Shown: piece by piece, positions 35,401 to 45,400 of the stretch | Layout: each line of letters begins with the position of its first letter | Position numbering within the stretch: the stretch's first letter is position 1 | Source: Actinomortierella ambigua | Lineage: Eukaryota > Mortierellomycota > Mortierellomycetes > Mortierellales > Mortierellaceae | Assembly: GCA_016098155.1 (NCBI GenBank) | Contig: JAAAJB010000007.1 | Location: 68,979 to 132,978, forward strand | Direction of reading: 5' to 3' | DNA: 64,000 bases | Made by a program: the position numbers and the translations under genes | The notes under the pieces: generated by a model | Databases searched by the model: none | What the model was told of the DNA's origin: nothing | Seen by the model: only the letters and a program-made list of their open reading frames with translations

Positions 35401-38400
35401 TGTACATATACAGCACCTCCATGGTGCGATTCATTGATGACGCTAAGAGTGAGCTCAACACAAGGACGATGGCTGTAGACTCCCTCGGAATGGTGGCAGC
35501 CAAGATCAAAACTACTATGCTTCGCTGTAAGAATTCCACTTTGGCGTCGCATCTTAAGCATCAGGCCTTACAGAATGAGGATGTAGAAGGCAGGGAGAAG
35601 ATGGCAAACGAAGAATGGAGACTGTTCTATGGAGAACTCGGCAAGGGGACCAACATCAATGATCTCATCAGCCTGCAGGGGAGCTACAACCAAGTGATCG
35701 ACTATCTCCAACCTCTCGAATGGAACGATCGTGCGATTAGAGCGGCCAAGTGTGCGTGGGTTTGGCAGTGGGCCAACCTTCTTTGCTCGGCGTGTAGCGC
35801 TTCGAAAGATATACAGGGTACAGACTGGCCTCAGGATAAATGGGGTATTATCTCCGATGAGACGATGAAGCTATGGCGGATACTGGCTGGCCATCCGCTG
35901 CCACAAGCGAGGAGAAGGTAGCATAACGGTTGCATTCATATTTGCCTCCATGTTCTGTCTCTACGCAATCTGACAAAACGAGAACTGACACACCCTCCCC
36001 CACCCGTTCTTGCGTTTTTGGTGACTATAGAGTGGCACGCACATTACCTCTAGAAGCTTCAGAGTATCTTACCTCACGGCAACCGCTCTTCCAGTCTTTT
36101 GACCTCCTCTTGTCCCGTATTCTAATGACACTTGAAGGAGGCGTTGTGGCGCTCCGGACAAAGTCCCTCAAGTCGCTTTCATTGATTGTGACGGGCGACT
36201 ATGGAGTTCTTTCTCAACAAAACGTGCAGAAGACGATATCTCTTCGACTCCAAGACTCTAGCCCAGCTGTTCGTGATGCAGCCATCGATCTTGTCGGCAA
36301 GTACATGCTTGAGGACAAGGACATCCTGAAAGCGTACTATGAAATCGTCGGCGATCGCCTTTCTGTGAGTGACACGATGACTGTCCTTTTATGCTGAGCA
36401 CTTTTCCTCTAATGACAACTAATTTTGCAGCAATGTACTTACAATATCCTGCGTCTTCTATTTTGTTTGAAATTTCCTGTCGACATCAAACAGGATACAG
36501 GTCTTGGTGTACGTAAGCGAGTTATTCGTTTGTTCAAGGACATTTTCGCAAAGACAGAGACAAGAGCTGTCAAAAATGACATTGCCAAGAGGATTTTATG
36601 GCGTGTGAAGGATGACGAACCGACCGTTCGAGATCTGGCAATCAAGAGCGCGTTTGATATTTGGTTCGGCGAGTTTGTCCAAGCAACGCAACCAGTTCTC
36701 TCGAACGCCAAGCTTGATGAGGAGCCGTCGAACGTCGCTCAAGAGTCACCCTTGAGCACCGTTTCGACCTCCCAGAGGCGCGTTGTTCTGCGCCGGGGGA
36801 GAGTGCTCGTAGACGCCGTAGAGCAATTGCCGCCACCTCTCGTGGATGCTTTTGGTCATGTCCTAGTGACTCTTTTGGGCAAGGAAGGAGCCATTACGGC
36901 GACACCGCATTCTGCTTCTGCCGCGAATGCGCCCATGAGCTCTCAGGCGTTTTCAAGAGTCTGTTATATCCTTGTCGATTGTCTTGTAGACTTGATTGTT
37001 GTGCTTCAGGAAGAAGAGGAAGCCACCTCCAAGGCTGGCACGATCGCCACGATGCATGCGCTCAGCATTTTCAGCAAGGCAGAGCCTCGGTTGATGACGG
37101 CAAGACACTTGGCCACACTACGGACATATCTCGTTGGTGCTTCGACAGCAGACGACTGGCGAATCACGATGCATGTGCTCAAGATCTATTTGGATGTAGT
37201 CCCGGCCGTTCAGGAGACGACCAGTCTAGCATTTGCCCAGTCGGTGGAGAAGCTTCTTTCGAGTCTGTTGTCGAGCTGTCCATTGGTGGTGGTGCCGGAT
37301 GCAGCGCGTGCGTTGTGTCTTGTCATCCGATTAGTGACCCTGCAGAGTGCTCGACTGAGCAAGCTGATCCAGAGCTGTGTGGGCATGCTCCGGTCCGATC
37401 TTGAGCGGTTTCACCGTCAAGGCACACAGATGACCGAAAACAAGACTCGGCGCCTACTGCTCATCACGGGTCTCCTGTGCCAACATTTTCCCTTTGATAA
37501 GGAGATTGAGAAGCATCCTGAGGAGCAGCATTTGGCGACGCTCGCTTCCAATATGGCTCCCTCAGTGCACGAGACGGTGTTCAACACCCTTCTCTCCTAC
37601 TTTTCCAAGGACTTGCCCGTCGCCATTCAACAGACGGCGTTGAGGTGCGTTGGATACGTTTTCCACTCGTTCCCGACGCTCATGAACACACAACAAGGCA
37701 TCGAGCTGATGGACTCTGTCTTTGAAGAGCGCTCGCCCGCCCATCTCCACGAGCTGCTACAACATTTTAACAACTACCTGATCAAGACGAACACGTTCGA
37801 GTCCGAGGCCGACGCCCACTCCTCAGCGACAGCAGCTAGTGGTCATAGCAGCAAGCGTGGTGGCGGCAAAAGGAGCCATTCGGACGCCGCGGCAGGATCT
37901 GGCAAGGCGACCAGGAGTCTGATCGCAAAGGCGGAAGACCATCTGGAAGCCGGTATTGCGAGCGCGGTGATGCAACGGTATTTGGACCGTATCCTGCAAT
38001 GTACGCTCATGCTGGATCCGACGGTGCAAGTGATTGCAGTGGATGTGATGACCATCATCAACCAGCAGGCTCTGGTTCATCCGATGCTCTGCATGCCGTC
38101 GATCGTGGCCTTGGAGACAAGCCCCAACCGCGTCTTGAGCGACCGCGTCCTCCGCATCCACAAGGACCTGCATCACAAGCATGCGTCCCTCATCTATGCC
38201 AAGAGCTTGGAGTGCATCCGAACCATGTATCTGTATCAGAAGCAGCTCCAGTCCTCGAGTGGCGAGCATGAAGTCCAAGGTAAAAAAAAACCTGCCATAT
38301 TGCCTCTTCTCGGGGACGAACTGTGCGGACGAAAAAAAAATTGCTCATATGATCATTTGGCTCACCTTTTTTTCCCCCTATCCATTGACAATCTTTCAGG

Positions 38401-39562
38401 TTACAGAGCGGCGGAAGGGCGTATCCCCGAGTCGCTGCTCAATCCAATGTATAGTCTAGTGTCGGAAAAACGTCAGGTTCGGCAGTCGTTGTTGTTGGGA
38501 CTGGTCAAGCTGCTGGATGTCGAGCCATCGAATCCAACCTCGACCGTCGATCCAATCTACATCCGCTTTCTCGGCGAGCTACTGGCGACTCTTGAGTATC
38601 GGACGGTGGAGGAGGTTCTTTACGTCATCTTCTATCTCAACCGGATCATTGCAGGGGCCGGATTTACATTGCTCGAGAGCTTGCGCGAACAACGGGATCC
38701 CTCTAGCACATGCAACTCTATAGGCATTCACTTGTCGTTGTCTAGCGGTACCATGGGGTCATCTTTGCCTATGGCATCGTCGTCGATGGACAAGGGCATG
38801 GCACCAGCTCCATCCAAGAGAAGTAAACGACGAAAAAAGAAGGGAATCTCCAACGACGCGATGGTAACGAGTAGTAGCCACCAGCGGTCTAGCCTGCTAG
38901 ACCATGACGAGTCGGGCGAGGACGAGGTGGGCGACCGTGTGCTACTGGACTGGTACAGCAACATTCCCGAGGCGACCTTCCGGTCGATGGAGAGGACGGC
39001 CCGAGGGAGCATTGCGCTGGAGACAGTCGTCCTGGTCAAGAGCCATCTGAAGCACGTATATGACATTAGCGAAAGCCGCTGTCAGCAGTTCCAGCCGTCG
39101 GCCCATGCAGGACATAAAGAGCGACCCCATGCTATCCACGCCACCCCGGGCAAGCTTCCTTGGAACAGGACACGTTTGGGGATCCAGATGTTGGTCATGA
39201 ATGACCTGTCGACCATATCCAGCAACAGCACCACCACCACCAACTCATCATCAGCAGGCGGAGATAAAAGTGATGACGGCGTGGCGACTCTTGCCCATAC
39301 ACGTGCTCGAAAGATGAGGGCGATCGACATCCAATTGGCGCGGTTCCGACGGCTCATGGAGGCAGAGTCTGTGGATAAGATGTTTGAATCTCTAGAGATT
39401 CGGTCGGAGCGCAACAGCAGTGGCCCAAGAAATGCATCGATATCCATAGAACTGACAACCAGGATAGATCCAGAACCGGCCGGAGGACTAACGGCAAGTG
39501 GGGCAATGAGTGGTGATGATGACGGGCTCCACGGCCATGCCTCTGGTGAAGACGAGGCTTGA
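32479..39562 (+). CDS. SCC2: Cohesin loader Scc2/Mis4/NIPBL orthologue, ten exons with one apparent frameshift
   Basis: Exons: 32479-32629, 32731-32902, 33011-33845, 33899-34641, 34752-34852, 34941-35088, 35205-35917, 36031-36364, 36494-38279 and 38400-39562. Together they would give about 2,048 residues if one base were restored in exon 3. Family marks: a HEAT-repeat body; FTKHPTQRLWILEEILSSL; the conserved stretch DTGLGVRKRVIRLFKDIF, followed by RVKDDEPTVRDLAIKSAFDIWF; then long C-terminal HEAT repeats and a basic KRRKKKG segment. With Scc4/MAU2, Scc2 loads cohesin onto chromosomes and stimulates its ATPase. The oddity is that exon 3 reads in one frame as a Ser/Pro/Glu-rich linker up to an A9 run (33796-33804) and meets a stop at 33819. 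The next frame gives TEISINHLAAFRK, which joins in phase to exon 4 through a clean 53-nt intron. A uORF (32428-32469) precedes the start. Confidence 0.88.
33796..33804 (+). other. A9 run at the apparent frameshift in SCC2
   Basis: The coding frame that is open from 33012 ends at TAA 33819-33821. The frame that continues into the conserved helical part is open from 33692 to the donor at 33846. One extra A in this nine-A run would join them. An assembly indel is the simplest reading. A natural mutation, slippage or an unrecognised intron are alternatives. Confidence 0.6.
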
Positions 39563-39750: not shown

Positions 39751-42202
39751 CTATGCATTGGTGGCCAACTGGCGAATCTCGGCATCCTCATAACCGAGCA
39801 AGTACAAGACGTACTTGAGGCTCTTTTGGTTGATGCGGGCGCGAGCCTTCTGCTGCACACGGGGCTTGGCGTTGAAGGCAATACCCAAACCAGCCTTGGC
39901 CAACATCCACAAGTCGTTGGCACCATCGCCCACAGCAATGACCTGGTCCAGCGTGACAGACTCGGCCTGTGCAATGACCTCCAACAACTCGGCCTTGCGC
40001 TCACCAGAGACAATGGGTCCGACAGTCTCGCCTGTCAGGTACAGTCCATCGGGCGACACCTTGAGATGGTTCGCAAAGGCATAGTCCAGACCAAGAATAT
40101 TCTTGACGTGCAGCGCCAGAGGCATGAATCCTCCCGAGATGACAGCGAGCTTGAATCCAATCTTCTTCAGTGCCTTGCACAGATAGACGGCGTCCTCTGT
40201 AAACGTGAGCGATTCCTTCACCGTCTCCAACACCGCCACCGGTGTACCCTTCAGCAGCGCCACACGGCGGCGCAGCGACTCCTTAAAGTCAATCTCACCG
40301 TTCATAGCCGCCTCCGTGATTTCCTGGTAGCAAGAGCAGAAAGAAAGAGAGAGAGAGAGAGAAAGGATTTGGTAAGCATTGGAAATCAGACATTGCGAGA
40401 CAAACCATTGGATAACACAGCTCAAAACAAAAAAAAAAAAAAAAAAAAAGAGAGATATCATAGAGATGCTCAAGAAAAGATGGAGAGAGATGAAGGGCAA
40501 ACACACATACCGACACCTTGTCCATCACACCGGCGTGACGAGCAATCTCATCAATCACCTCCTGCTGAATCAGAGTCGAATCCATATCAAAAACGACGAG
40601 ACGCTTATGCTTTCGGAAGACATCGTATGGCTGCAGAGCAACATCGGTACCATGCTGAGCAGACAACTGGAACAGCGTCTCTCGGAAGCGATCCATGTCC
40701 AGGTTGGCCGGCACCGAGAGCTTGTAATCAGCACACGCCAATCGACCCTCGTTCAAGCGCACCATCTTCTCGACCGAGATCTTGGCCCGAAGCAGCAGAC
40801 CCGTCCACGAGGCCATGAATCCAGAAGTAAGACCTTGCTGACAGAGCACCGTCGCCGTGTACTTGAGGCGGCCCTCGTAGGGCGCATCCTCGAGCGATCG
40901 GGGCACATAGCTGCCAAAGTGGGGGTCCTTCTTGAGCGAATCCAAAATGTCAAACGTCAGCGTCGCATCCCACTGCTTGGCAGCACTGGCCAGGTCCTGG
41001 AAGATGCCCAGATCGTCCTTCTTGACCGTGATCAGGATCGCAAACGTCACATTGTGATACAGGCGCGCAAAGGAAAAGTCCTCCAGCTCACAATCGTACT
41101 TGGCTGCACAGTGCAGCAGCGACCCAATGATGTCCGTGCCGTGGGGCCCGCTCATCGAAATGAGAACCTTTTGGTGTGGCAGTAACGCTGCGGGAGGGAA
41201 CCACGTCTTTTCCACCGGTGGAAGAGTCGTTGGGCGCCACATCATGACTGGCGAATCAGTGTTGAACTGGACACCACCTGGCGAATATGGGGTTTCTAAA
41301 TTCACATTTTTTGTTCCCAAAAAAATAAGAAAAAAGGAGGGGACAAAAGATTTTTGTGTGTGAGGTTCGAGGGGCGGGCATTGGACTGTTTATGTACGAC
41401 CTCCTGGATCTCCATCGCATTTGGCTGATCCAAAAGACAACCAACAACAACACATGTCTGCTTTTCAACCATCCTTACCTGCAGAGCGACCACCAGGGCT
41501 CATGATCTCGGGAGGCTGAGCAGAAGTCTGGATCCTTGTGACGGCACCGGTGAGCTGCTCCATGAGCTCCTTCTTGATGGTGCTTAGTTGCTCAGATCTG
41601 GCAAAGGGCATCCTCCGGACCCGATCCAGATATGCGTCGCTCAGTCCCAGTCCTGCATGGCGGTCCATCTTCTTGATAATCTTGACAATACCTGTAAAGT
41701 TGAGGAAGATGTACCTCTCCAGCTGGATGATCGACTGGAGCGAGGCCTCGATCGTCTGCTTTGACGTCGAAGCATACGACGCTCGGATCCTTTGTGTCTC
41801 GGCCGCCGTCAGTGCAGCCACCACCCCCACCTGCTCGTCCAACATGGCCAGGAACTCGGGAACCTTGACTTGCAAAGTACCCATCCGGGCGGCAATGGTT
41901 TGTGGGAACGACTGCAGCTCTGAGAGTGCCTCGGCAAAGGAGCTCATGCCCAGGCTGTAGGGCGGCGAGGAAGGAAGGCCATTAGATGTCTGCACGGGGG
42001 AGCCTAGCTGGGGAATCGACGACGTCGTGCCGACACTGCCCTTGTTGACACCGTTGGTGGTGGTTGCTGAGGAGGGCCTCAAGCATGCAGGGGCGATCTC
42101 GTCTTTGATAAACTGCTTGAGTTGGGAATAGTCGATAACCTTGGGCTGCCACTCAACGGGCAGCTGCTGCTTCCGCTCGTTGAGGTAATTGCCGTACTTC
42201 AT
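39751..42202 (-). CDS. SPX domain fused to a tandem-ACT phosphoserine phosphatase
   Basis: Exons 42202-41479, 41295-40511 and 40323-39751 join in phase to 693 residues. Residues 1-220 are an SPX domain: start MKYGNYLNERKQQLP, the DYSQLK helix (Tyr25, Lys29) and KIIKKMDRHAG (Lys174, 177, 178). These are the positions that bind inositol pyrophosphates in SPX proteins. An insert fills residues 40-85. The second exon encodes two ACT-like folds (about 283-360 and 385-465). The SerB-type HAD phosphatase then starts with VVFDMDSTL (Asp478, Asp480) and carries VISGG, GERK and GDGANDLWML. The enzyme should make L-serine from phosphoserine in the last step of the phosphorylated pathway. The fusion rests on a GTAAGG donor inside the SPX frame, a matching phase-1 acceptor, and no good start at the head of the phosphatase part. 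If unspliced, the SPX frame stops nine bases into the intron. Confidence 0.86.
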
Positions 42203-42451: not shown

Positions 42452-45400
42452 TTACAGCTTTGCAGCCATTGTTCGTAGGAGTGCAGCATTGTGTGCCCCA
42501 GTTTCGTCCACCAAGGCCCCGAATAATGAATTGGGCCTTTCTAGCAGCTGTCTTGGGGTATCAAACTCGGCCACCTCGCCATGCTCCATGACAAGGATCA
42601 CGTTGTAGTCGATGATGGTGTTCAACCGGTGGGCAATCGTCACTACAGTCGACGTAGCAAAGTCCTCGCGAATCGCCTTCTGGATCAGTGCATCCGTCGC
42701 CAAATCCACGCTTGCCGTCGCTGTTGAGAGTGGGGAAGGGGGAGGAGGAGGAGGAGGAGGAGGAGGAGAGAGGGCCATTAGGTATAGAGAACAGGCACGA
42801 ATAGATCAACGGAGAGCCCTTGACCTCTTGTCATCAACTTTGCATCCACAACACTCATCATGACCACTTACCCTCGTCGAGCACCACAACTTTAGACTTT
42901 GCCAACAGCGCTCGTGACAGACAGACCAATTGTCTCTGACCAACACTCAGATTCTCTCCATGAGCGGCGACTACGGCATCAAGCCCTCCATCCTGCTCAG
43001 CAACATAATTCTTGAGGTCCGATGTTTCCAATGCTCGCCATAGCTCGTCATCGGTGTATCGGCCCAGCGGATCGAGATTGTATCGGAAGGTGCCCTGGAA
43101 GAGAACCGGGTCCTGAGGAATAATAGCAATCCTGGATCGCAGGTCGGCCGTGCCCAAAGCCCCAGTCTCAATGCCGTCGATGAATATCTGGCCCTCATCC
43201 AGCTCAACCAGGCGAAAGAATGCCTGGATAAGAGACGACTTGCCGGCGCCGGTACGACCCACCACGCCAATCTTCTGGCCGCCCTGGACAACAAAGGACA
43301 CGTTGCGGAGAACCCGAGGCAATCCGGCTCGGTAGCACATCGAGACGTTGGAAAACTCTATTGTTCCTTGCGATGGCCATGACGCTGCTGGTTCTGTGTC
43401 GGGTCGTACAGCTGGTGGTTCGCTGGGCAGGTTCTCGATGTAGTAGTTAAGGCGCTCTGCAGAGTTCATGTTGTTTTCCTAATGTTGGTATAGTAGACAG
43501 GACGAGCAAGTGGATGAGCGAGTATGTGTGAAAAATACGTCCGTCAGTGCTACATCAACAAGGTCATCATCCACCCAAAAAAAAATAGAAGAAGTAAACA
43601 TAAATAGTTATCATCGTAATATCATCCATTACCAGCATAGTGATCTTTTGAAGGACCCAGTTCATGTCGCCAGAGAGACGTGAAAGGTAGCTCATGACCA
43701 AACCAGCGGTGGCAGCGTCAATCGTAAAGCGTGTACCGATGATCATCATCGCTGTTCCAAACTGAATCAAGGTACCCAGGAGATTGACGCGCAACGACAA
43801 CCATCGGGCCGCTGTGATAAAAATGTAGTAAGGTCGGTTGCTGCGGTCCAAAACAGCTCGCTGGTCCTTTATCGCCGTCTCTGTCACTTTAAATGCCCGG
43901 AGCAATGTCATGCCATGAAGACATTCCGCAAAGTGTGTAAACAGGTAGGACCGGCAGGTGGAATCCAACCGCTTGACCTCTCGACTGGTAGTCAGGTAGT
44001 AGACGCTGATCAAATAGTAGGTTGCACCGATCGGAAGGATGGCCACAGTGAGCCACGGAAAGAAAATTATGGTAAGGACAACCGTGCCCAGGGCGTTGAG
44101 CGCGGTTACAAAGATGTCGTTGATCGTCTCCCAAAAGATATTGTCCAGATCTGAGACATCCTTGCTAAATCGGTTAAGAATACGTCCAGCGGGCGTGGTG
44201 TCGAAGAACGAAAGAGGCGCTCGAAGCACATTCTCCATCGCCCGGTCGTGGATTGTGCGTGTCGTCACGATGATGATCTTGGAGAGAAGTGCGGTTGCAG
44301 TAAGACCCATGCCCAGTTGATCGAACGCAAAGACCACATAGATGATAATCTAAATAGTGATGCAGATATGCATTGGTTAAAGTGAGGCATAAGAGGATCG
44401 TCCTATACGAGGAAATTGTATTCCGCTGATTCTTCATGCCGGCGGGGACACCATCACTTACATATTGAAACATGGGTAACCCAAGAGAGTCATTTGTCCA
44501 CAAGCTGAGCCAATAGTTCATGCTACAAGAAAAACAAGTCAGAACAACGTTAGCTAGAGTCAAAAGCAGGCATTATCACAGTCTCTTGTCCATTGAATTG
44601 ACGGATAGGCCAGTGCACGGTAACGTACACGACACTCTGCACTTGTTGGATGACGTAGAAAAAGGCCGCGATGCCCCAGAGCCGCCATCCTGCAGTCTTG
44701 AAGTACGCGATATAGACACTGGAATCGATGGCACCTTTTGCGCGCTCTTCGTCCACAATCTGTTTCGCCGGTGTTTGGCCAGATGTGGAGTCAATAGAGT
44801 CTTCCTTGACATCCCTCTCCTTCTCAAGTGGCGCTGTCTGATCGTCTCCTTGGTCTTTCTCACTGATTGGTGCAGCTCGCTCGGAAGTATTGACTGGTAT
44901 CTCTGTGAGCTCACCCTTGATAGATGCACGGTCCCCCTGACTCGAAGCGCCGTCGTTCGACGATTGAGTAGAAGATACATTCTCTTCTCCACCATACTGC
45001 TCCATGAGGAGACGGAAGCTACTCTTGTCGTCGTTCATGAGCTGATTGTATGTGCCTTGTTGATCGATTTTGCCATCTTTCATGCACACAATATAGTCGA
45101 CATCTGGCAGAACATGAAGCTGATGAGTAGCAATGACTCTTGTGCGTCCACGCAGCTCGCCCAGTACACATCTGTGCCAAAGATGCTTGCCGACGTGCGC
45201 ATCTACTGCGGATAACGGATCATCCATCACCACCATGTCAGCATCAAAGTAGACGCTCCTGGCCAGCGACAGACGAGCCTTCTGGCCTCCCGACAGATTG
45301 ACGCCTCGTTCTCCAATCTCTGTCTGATCGCCATCTGGGAACATGGCTAAATCCTTCTCCATGCAACATGCCGTCACGATCCTCTGATATTTGACAGGAT

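Follow-up and report, generated by a model that had tools for sequence, protein, structure and literature searches.

The locus and the architecture of its product

The window analysed here is a stretch of 64,000 nucleotides from the fungus Actinomortierella ambigua (contig JAAAJB010000007.1), and on its minus strand lies a gene of three exons whose predicted product joins an SPX domain to a phosphoserine phosphatase with two ACT domains. Splicing of these exons gives a protein of 693 amino acids in the order SPX, disordered linker, ACT, ACT and phosphoserine phosphatase (Table 1). This product matches the database protein P0001 (hypothetical protein DFQ27_008372, Actinomortierella ambigua; labelled phosphoserine phosphatase in UniRef) at 693 of 693 positions, with the proviso that P0001 may itself derive from gene prediction. 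An earlier note made from this DNA had proposed an SPX frame ending at a phase 1 GTAAGG donor and an acceptor with its exon start at 41295, and both are borne out by this identity. The acceptor is further backed by the linker that it creates, in which ETPYSP aligns with ESPFSP of the Linnemannia homolog P0003. An alternative acceptor at 41277 likewise preserves the frame, and was rejected because it drops linker residues that are kept in relatives.

The Pfam SPX family (PF03105) scores 46.0 bits against the whole protein and 51.1 bits against exon 1 alone (cut-off 27.8), ACT_6 scores 35.3 bits (cut-off 23) and Hydrolase 82.7 bits (cut-off 26.4). The NCBIfam model serB (TIGR00338) reaches 264.7 bits against an equivalog cut-off of 144.15, which five relatives scanned likewise exceed. 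Pfam detects the first ACT domain only; the second is evident from the structure model, where both ACT domains have the order beta-alpha-beta-beta-alpha-beta, and from an alignment of 393 residues to M. avium SerB2. Family profiles, model and alignment thus agree with the fused architecture proposed in the earlier note. The top 50 of a Foldseek search with the full-length model consist of proteins of ACT and HAD type, none of them an SPX protein, because the phosphatase takes up the list; we therefore modelled the SPX part alone, and the model has the SPX helical fold from residue 1 on. Known SPX architectures comprise EXS/XPR1, VTC, GDPD/Gde1, Pho81 (ankyrin), the transporters Pho87/90/91 and SPX-RING. 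No partner domain of these classes was found in the protein among the eight Pfam families with E values up to 1 (SPX, ACT_6, DUF705 and five HAD-type phosphatase or hydrolase families).

Table 1. Coordinates of the SPX-phosphatase gene and its parts within the window
Feature	Positions	Strand	Remarks
Exon 1	42202-41479	-	Start codon, SPX (residues 1-220, 42202-41543) and beginning of linker; phase 1 end, G followed by donor GTAAGG
Tyr25 codon	42130-42128	-	Putative inositol-pyrophosphate pocket
Lys29 codon	42118-42116	-	Putative pocket
Helix alpha-4 lysines	41683-41669	-	Lys174 41683-41681, Lys177 41674-41672, Lys178 41671-41669
Linker (residues 221-283)	41542-41171	-	Disordered; spans intron 1
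Intron 1	41478-41296	-	183 nucleotides, GTAAGG...TTTAG; acceptor backed by homologous linker residues and P0001 identity
Exon 2	41295-40511	-	Remainder of linker (to residue 283), ACT1, ACT2, start of HAD phosphatase
ACT1 (residues 284-359)	41170-40943	-	Within exon 2
ACT2 (residues 385-464)	40867-40628	-	Within exon 2
DMDST motif	from 40588	-	Exon 2, start of HAD phosphatase
Intron 2	40510-40324	-	187 nucleotides; splits phosphatase domain
Exon 3	40323-39751	-	Rest of HAD-IB phosphoserine phosphatase with SGG, Lys613 and GDGAND; stop codon 39753-39751

Within the linker, MSPGG, ETPYSPGG and DSPVMM together contain four SP/TP motifs; the 15 family members shown have one to four such motifs per linker, and these are possible candidate sites for proline-directed kinases. 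Convergent with the SPX-phosphatase gene is a plus-strand open frame (36416-39562) that carries the C-terminus of the Nipped-B/Scc2 sister chromatid cohesion protein (PF12830, 160.6 bits), and the stop codons of the two lie less than 200 bases apart. Directly upstream on the same strand are ABC transporter exons (42452-44349, minus; ABC_tran and ABC_membrane). Some 250 bases separate the apparently last of these, in the frame 42452-42805, from the start codon of SPX.

The fusion across early-diverging fungi

A protein homolog search scored 7999 candidates, 3523 of them with E values of at most 0.001, and our figures come from the best 120 of these 3523. Pfam SPX is present in 106 of the 120. 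A family SPX profile, with scores below 1e-5, is matched by 111, a count that leans towards yes given that the profile was built from 37 of the same homologs. Among the matches listed, SPX-bearing hosts include Mortierella, Linnemannia, Podila, Lobosporangium, Rhizophagus, Diversispora, Ambispora, Geosiphon, Endogone, Jimgerdemannia, Rhizopus, Mucor, Phycomyces, Umbelopsis, Basidiobolus, Syncephalis, Coemansia, Spizellomyces, Gaertneriomyces, Piromyces, Allomyces and Paraphysoderma. No Dikarya and no non-fungal eukaryotes are named among the matches listed (the best 120 of 3523 and the 40 from the search with P0099 described below), neither group having been the object of a dedicated search. 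Two of the homologs, P0001 and P0002, are both labelled Actinomortierella ambigua and are 90% identical overall and 77% identical over residues 1-245, which suggests that two species may stand under one name.

The longest contigs listed for P0086 (627 amino acids; 1,884 bases) and P0093 (625 amino acids; 1,878 bases), both fused, each consist of exactly the open reading frame and its stop codon, which leaves room for neither introns nor a boundary between genes. The EukProt protein P0099 is also fused; its name, Partr_v1_DN27200_c2_g1_i1, has a form that we take to indicate a transcript assembly and a prefix that we take to denote Paraphelidium tribonematis, an aphelid. Residues 1-425 of P0099, used as a query, recovered 40 proteins, 17 of them new, and SPX is present in 15 of these 17. 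Of these 15, nine metagenomic frames (P0122, P0123 and P0129-P0135) have their start at MKFG or ahead of it, and a tenth (P0136) begins inside SPX. In all ten, the reading continues through ACT as far as DMDST, and foreign residues follow from the point at which intron 2 starts. We take these frames to be unspliced, in which case they show the fusion even if nothing is assumed about splicing between SPX and phosphatase. A second architecture consisting of SPX and ACT only was considered and rejected: the ten frames break at intron 2, P0126 and P0127 earlier, and P0121 and P0125 later, and they look like cut predictions. One such SPX-ACT fragment, P0131, is called glycine cleavage system regulatory protein in its source; this label is misleading and is probably due to its ACT domains. 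Judged by these sequences, the SPX-phosphatase fusion is real, its chance origin is excluded by the existence of a family of fused proteins, and it is an old architecture across early-diverging fungi, not a peculiarity of the A. ambigua genome.

The 80 bacterial SerB loci listed, of 588 confirmed, match residues 260-693 only. In a tree built by a quick method from 22 fungal cores and 80 bacterial SerB rows, a branch with an SH-aLRT value of 100 separates the fungi from the bacteria, and the fungal stem is long and lies beside a Leptospiraceae row. Because of this long stem and the long-branch warning that comes with it, we name no donor of the phosphatase core. A SerB contig (L041) labelled Roseburia sp., from a Bacillota metagenome-assembled genome, is placed inside the Bacteroidota in the same tree, a position that might reflect bin contamination or transfer. 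Among the fungal proteins, the distances of the SPX and HAD parts are correlated (r 0.74 over 666 pairs of 37 members; none of 10000 shuffles is as high), as expected for parts that share a joint descent. We consider it about an even chance that a fungal ancestor put a serine-synthesis enzyme under direct SPX control, that early-diverging fungi, including mycorrhizal fungi of the Rhizophagus type, kept this arrangement and that some later lineages lost it. If so, this would be an undescribed branch of inositol-pyrophosphate signalling.

The earlier note knew of no SPX domain on a serine biosynthetic enzyme. We likewise found no description of an SPX-phosphoserine phosphatase in the titles and abstract starts that our searches of the open-licence literature listed, and the main text of a survey of nutrient signalling in arbuscular mycorrhizal fungi contains neither SerB nor serine biosynthesis. 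In the databases, however, such proteins are widespread across early-diverging fungi. As far as our searches reach, the parts are known and their combination is present in sequence databases yet undescribed in the literature found.

Predicted sensor and catalytic sites

The SPX pocket was examined in an alignment of 110 homologs of at least 540 amino acids, drawn from the same best 120. Tyr25, Lys29 and the lysines at 174, 177 and 178, which the earlier note had singled out, are all there in the right positions. Among rows with a letter, position 25 is Tyr in 103 of 103 and position 29 Lys in 103 of 105 (Asp in the other two), while Lys174 and Lys177 are each Lys in 109 of 109 rows and Lys178 in 110 of 110. 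Thinning of the 103 rows that have a letter at both 25 and 178 to less than 80% identity left a non-redundant set of 37, whose mean identity to P0001 over residues 1-230 is 31%. In all 37 members, Tyr25, Lys29, Asn168, Lys174, Lys177 and Lys178 are identical and position 181 is Lys or Arg; the conservation of Lys2 is 0.95, and Lys33 and Lys210 are also invariant. Mean conservation is 0.95 for the six pocket Lys/Arg positions versus 0.39 for the other 19 Lys/Arg positions (p 0.00055, 100000 draws), the pocket residues having been chosen from the list in the earlier note and by homology to SPX structures. In the alignment to 5ijp, an SPX structure bound to inositol hexakisphosphate (InsP6), helix 4 is clear, and Tyr25 and Lys29 fall on chain residues 22 and 26 in a short stretch without a score of its own. 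The substitutions Y19F, N121A and K127A in the SPX domain of Vtc2 mimic the structural effect of ligand binding in VTC (PMC10167327). By our own reading, the spacing of N121 and K127 in Vtc2 would be that of Asn168 and Lys174 in the A. ambigua SPX domain. The conservation of the pocket supports the proposal that the SPX-phosphatase family reads inositol pyrophosphates.

The phosphatase motifs DMDST, SGG and GDGAND, which the earlier note had called intact, are likewise in place, and a second intron that it did not mention puts SGG and GDGAND in exon 3. Residues D478, D480, S481, T482, E487, R523, S566, G567, G568, K613, D636, N639 and D640 are invariant (109 or 110 rows with a letter, of the 110). 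The ACT glycines G291, G294 and G396 are invariant as well, and H293 is His in 109 of 110 rows.

These parts are familiar from other settings. The matched chains of human PSPH (221 residues) are without SPX, unlike the A. ambigua protein, and yeast Ser2 is a short phosphoserine phosphatase that is not known to carry SPX. Gde1, an SPX glycerophosphodiester phosphodiesterase (CtGde1, 5ijj), has a GDPD catalytic domain and is not known to carry ACT domains, and its substrate is not an amino-acid precursor. In the VTC subunits Vtc2/3/4 the partner of SPX is a membrane polyphosphate polymerase, whereas in A. ambigua it is a soluble HAD phosphatase. The mycobacterial SerB2 enzymes (M. avium, 3p96 and 5jlp; M. 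tuberculosis, MtSerB2) have the ACT1-ACT2-HAD layout in common with the A. ambigua protein, with 33% identity over the 393 aligned residues, as well as the catalytic motifs and the ACT-turn glycines. However, they are bacterial and lack the SPX domain and linker. They are reported to be regulated by L-serine, other amino acids and oligomer state (PMC10564941, PMC4270767). In MtSerB2, glycines of the corresponding kind, G18 and G108, are required for serine binding, and serine drives formation of an inactive oligomer (PMC4270767); the active SerB2 dimer involves domain swapping of ACT1, which serine disrupts (PMC10564941). By analogy, the ACT domains of the A. ambigua protein may sense serine, as the earlier note had supposed.

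The A. ambigua genome has 13 serB matches, two of which are exons of this gene, and only this gene exceeds the cut-off; the other 11 score at most 38 bits against 144.15. Five of these 11 loci were scanned as candidates for another phosphoserine phosphatase and rejected or left without a family: L011, L014 and L016 carry P-type ATPase domains and L015 a P-type ATPase C-terminus, and L012 gave no family, though the frame scanned there may not be the matching one. A SerC-like (phosphoserine aminotransferase) gene, matched in two pieces of 324 and 90 bits, stays below the cut-off of 443.6 of the bacterial model, and for phosphoglycerate dehydrogenase (PGDH), the first step of the pathway, there are eight partial matches to a bacterial model, all below its cut-off. 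The sole SerB above the cut-off and the SerC-like gene fit a role of this protein in serine synthesis as the enzyme that hydrolyses O-phosphoserine. A. ambigua is probably also able to make inositol pyrophosphates, since its genome contains kinase candidates with IPK-family and PPIP5K_N matches. Exon-level SPX matches number 16, only two of them from this gene, and thus further SPX proteins exist in the genome.

A possible phosphate input to serine synthesis

In our best reading, the protein is a phosphatase of serine synthesis that inositol pyrophosphates regulate by way of its SPX domain and that serine perhaps regulates by way of its ACT domains. We infer ligand binding, regulation and direction alike, and consider it probable that SPX controls the phosphatase activity in one direction or the other. 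The gene product would carry out the last step of serine synthesis, from O-phosphoserine to serine and inorganic phosphate (Pi), with its N-terminal SPX domain on a flexible linker. When phosphate is plentiful, inositol pyrophosphates, 1,5-InsP8 above all, would bind SPX and alter SPX-SPX or SPX-enzyme contacts. The tandem ACT domains may bind serine, with a change of oligomeric state like that in M. tuberculosis SerB2. Through the linker, SPX is joined immediately N-terminal to ACT1, the domain that governs dimer formation in MtSerB2 (PMC10564941), and in the simplest mechanism ligand-controlled SPX contacts would shift the ACT-driven oligomer and with it the activity. The SPX and ACT signals might then jointly set the rate at which serine and Pi are released. 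Yeast cells starved of Pi have lowered levels of the inositol pyrophosphates InsP7 and InsP8, and 1,5-InsP8 has been put forward as the messenger by which SPX proteins are informed of abundance (PMC10511240). In VTC, an inhibitory contact between SPX domains is broken when ligand binds (PMC10167327). By analogy with VTC, we lean slightly towards pyrophosphate binding that activates or de-represses the enzyme in phosphate-replete cells. The earlier note had suggested that such a signal gates phosphate release from phosphoserine. Pocket conservation backs the pyrophosphate part of that proposal, whereas gating would be a further step that might go in either direction.

Several observations weigh against regulation of this kind. 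The structure model has a predicted template modelling score (pTM) of 0.55, its residues 220-275 have confidence values (pLDDT) below 50, and SPX is not placed against the enzyme, so that a loose SPX tether in place of allostery is possible. The pocket could also be maintained for InsP6 as a structural cofactor. One study reports no serine-driven size shift for MaSerB and MmSerB2 (PMC10564941), and therefore serine control of the fungal protein is not to be assumed. When residues 1-245 served as the only query, 34 proteins were recovered, all mortierellid members of this family and all in the top 34 of the full search, which means that the SPX part by itself is too divergent for that tool to go beyond them. 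The SPX part diverges more quickly than the phosphatase (mean distance 0.60 vs 0.21). Finally, SPX is lacking from nine of the best 120 homologs (P0035, P0096, P0103, P0108, P0109, P0111, P0114, P0115 and P0119) and from two of the 17 added (P0128 and P0137), and so either the enzyme can work without SPX or the gene models miss an exon. P0035, which starts with MSGPHG, and others like it look like cut gene models. P0103, P0108, P0109, P0111, P0114 and P0115, from Dentiscutata, Racocetra and Gigaspora (which we take together as Gigasporaceae), are tandem-ACT phosphatases of 417-430 amino acids that start at the linker, unlike the protein of Rhizophagus; we read this case as SPX loss or a missed exon.

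Other explanations of the locus were also weighed. One could suppose two genes, a 245-residue SPX protein ending at TGA 41467-41465 and a phosphatase starting from an internal ATG, with the fusion as a gene-model artefact or with both forms arising by retention of intron 1. The SPX frame does stay open past exon 1 into intron 1 until 41465, and intron retention is possible as an additional minor form. However, SPX is present in 111 of the best 120 homologs, P0099 is fused under a name in transcript-assembly style, P0086 and P0093 have no space for a boundary, and the metagenomic frames run continuously from SPX into DMDST before reaching an intron. We have rejected this reading on the last two grounds and consider it extremely improbable. 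It is also improbable, if less so, that SPX is a relic that served an ancestor and has drifted into a non-regulatory state in this lineage. Its faster divergence would suit that idea, as would the nesting of SPX-less proteins among SPX-bearing ones in the tree, where P0103 and P0115 group with Rhizophagus (support 82) and P0137, from Tieghemiomyces, groups with Coemansia (94). Yet the pocket residues are intact in the A. ambigua protein and in all 37 non-redundant members, rows that were selected for letters at positions 25 and 178.

Less easily set aside, but still unlikely, is the view that SPX acts mainly as an assembly or tethering module through SPX-SPX or SPX-partner contacts, bringing the enzyme near other SPX proteins or serine-pathway proteins, with an inositol phosphate at most as a structural cofactor. 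The long disordered linker and the model without a fixed SPX-enzyme interface favour it, as do the homotypic SPX contacts that exist in VTC. Against it, the pocket ranks with the most conserved positions of the SPX domain (Lys33 and Lys210 being invariant too), and the VTC contact is itself ligand-controlled (PMC10167327). The alternative that we regard as the most plausible, although we would not bet on it, is compatible with SPX control and forms the less favoured branch of that reading. Here InsP8 would inhibit the enzyme in phosphate-rich cells and starvation would release it, making serine synthesis a source of Pi. Serine supplies phospholipid and one-carbon demand that is linked to growth, which speaks against such an arrangement. 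The VTC precedent, activation by pyrophosphates, also points the other way (PMC10167327). In favour of reverse control, serine synthesis has been listed as a phosphate source that is predicted to rise under Pi limitation (PMC7864628), and the fall of InsP7 and InsP8 in starved yeast (PMC10511240) would fit as well. Overall, we regard the SPX-phosphatase as a real, old and conserved combination with intact predicted sensor and catalytic sites, and its regulation by SPX as a strong and direct hypothesis.

SPX domains serve as phosphate sensors on transporters, on polyphosphate polymerase, on Gde1 and on the regulator Pho81, and their fusion to this enzyme suggests that phosphate status may directly tune amino-acid production. 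A pocket that is invariant from chytrids to mycorrhizal fungi would argue directly that the supply of amino acids and one-carbon units is set by phosphate and energy status. The apparently SPX-less relatives, Gigaspora and its kin, offer a natural comparison for the role of SPX. If the proposal is true, serine and one-carbon supply would be set post-translationally by phosphate status, with serine feedback and InsP8 acting on one polypeptide. This would be a link at the protein level between phosphorus and nitrogen and carbon metabolism in fungi that include oil producers and plant symbionts.
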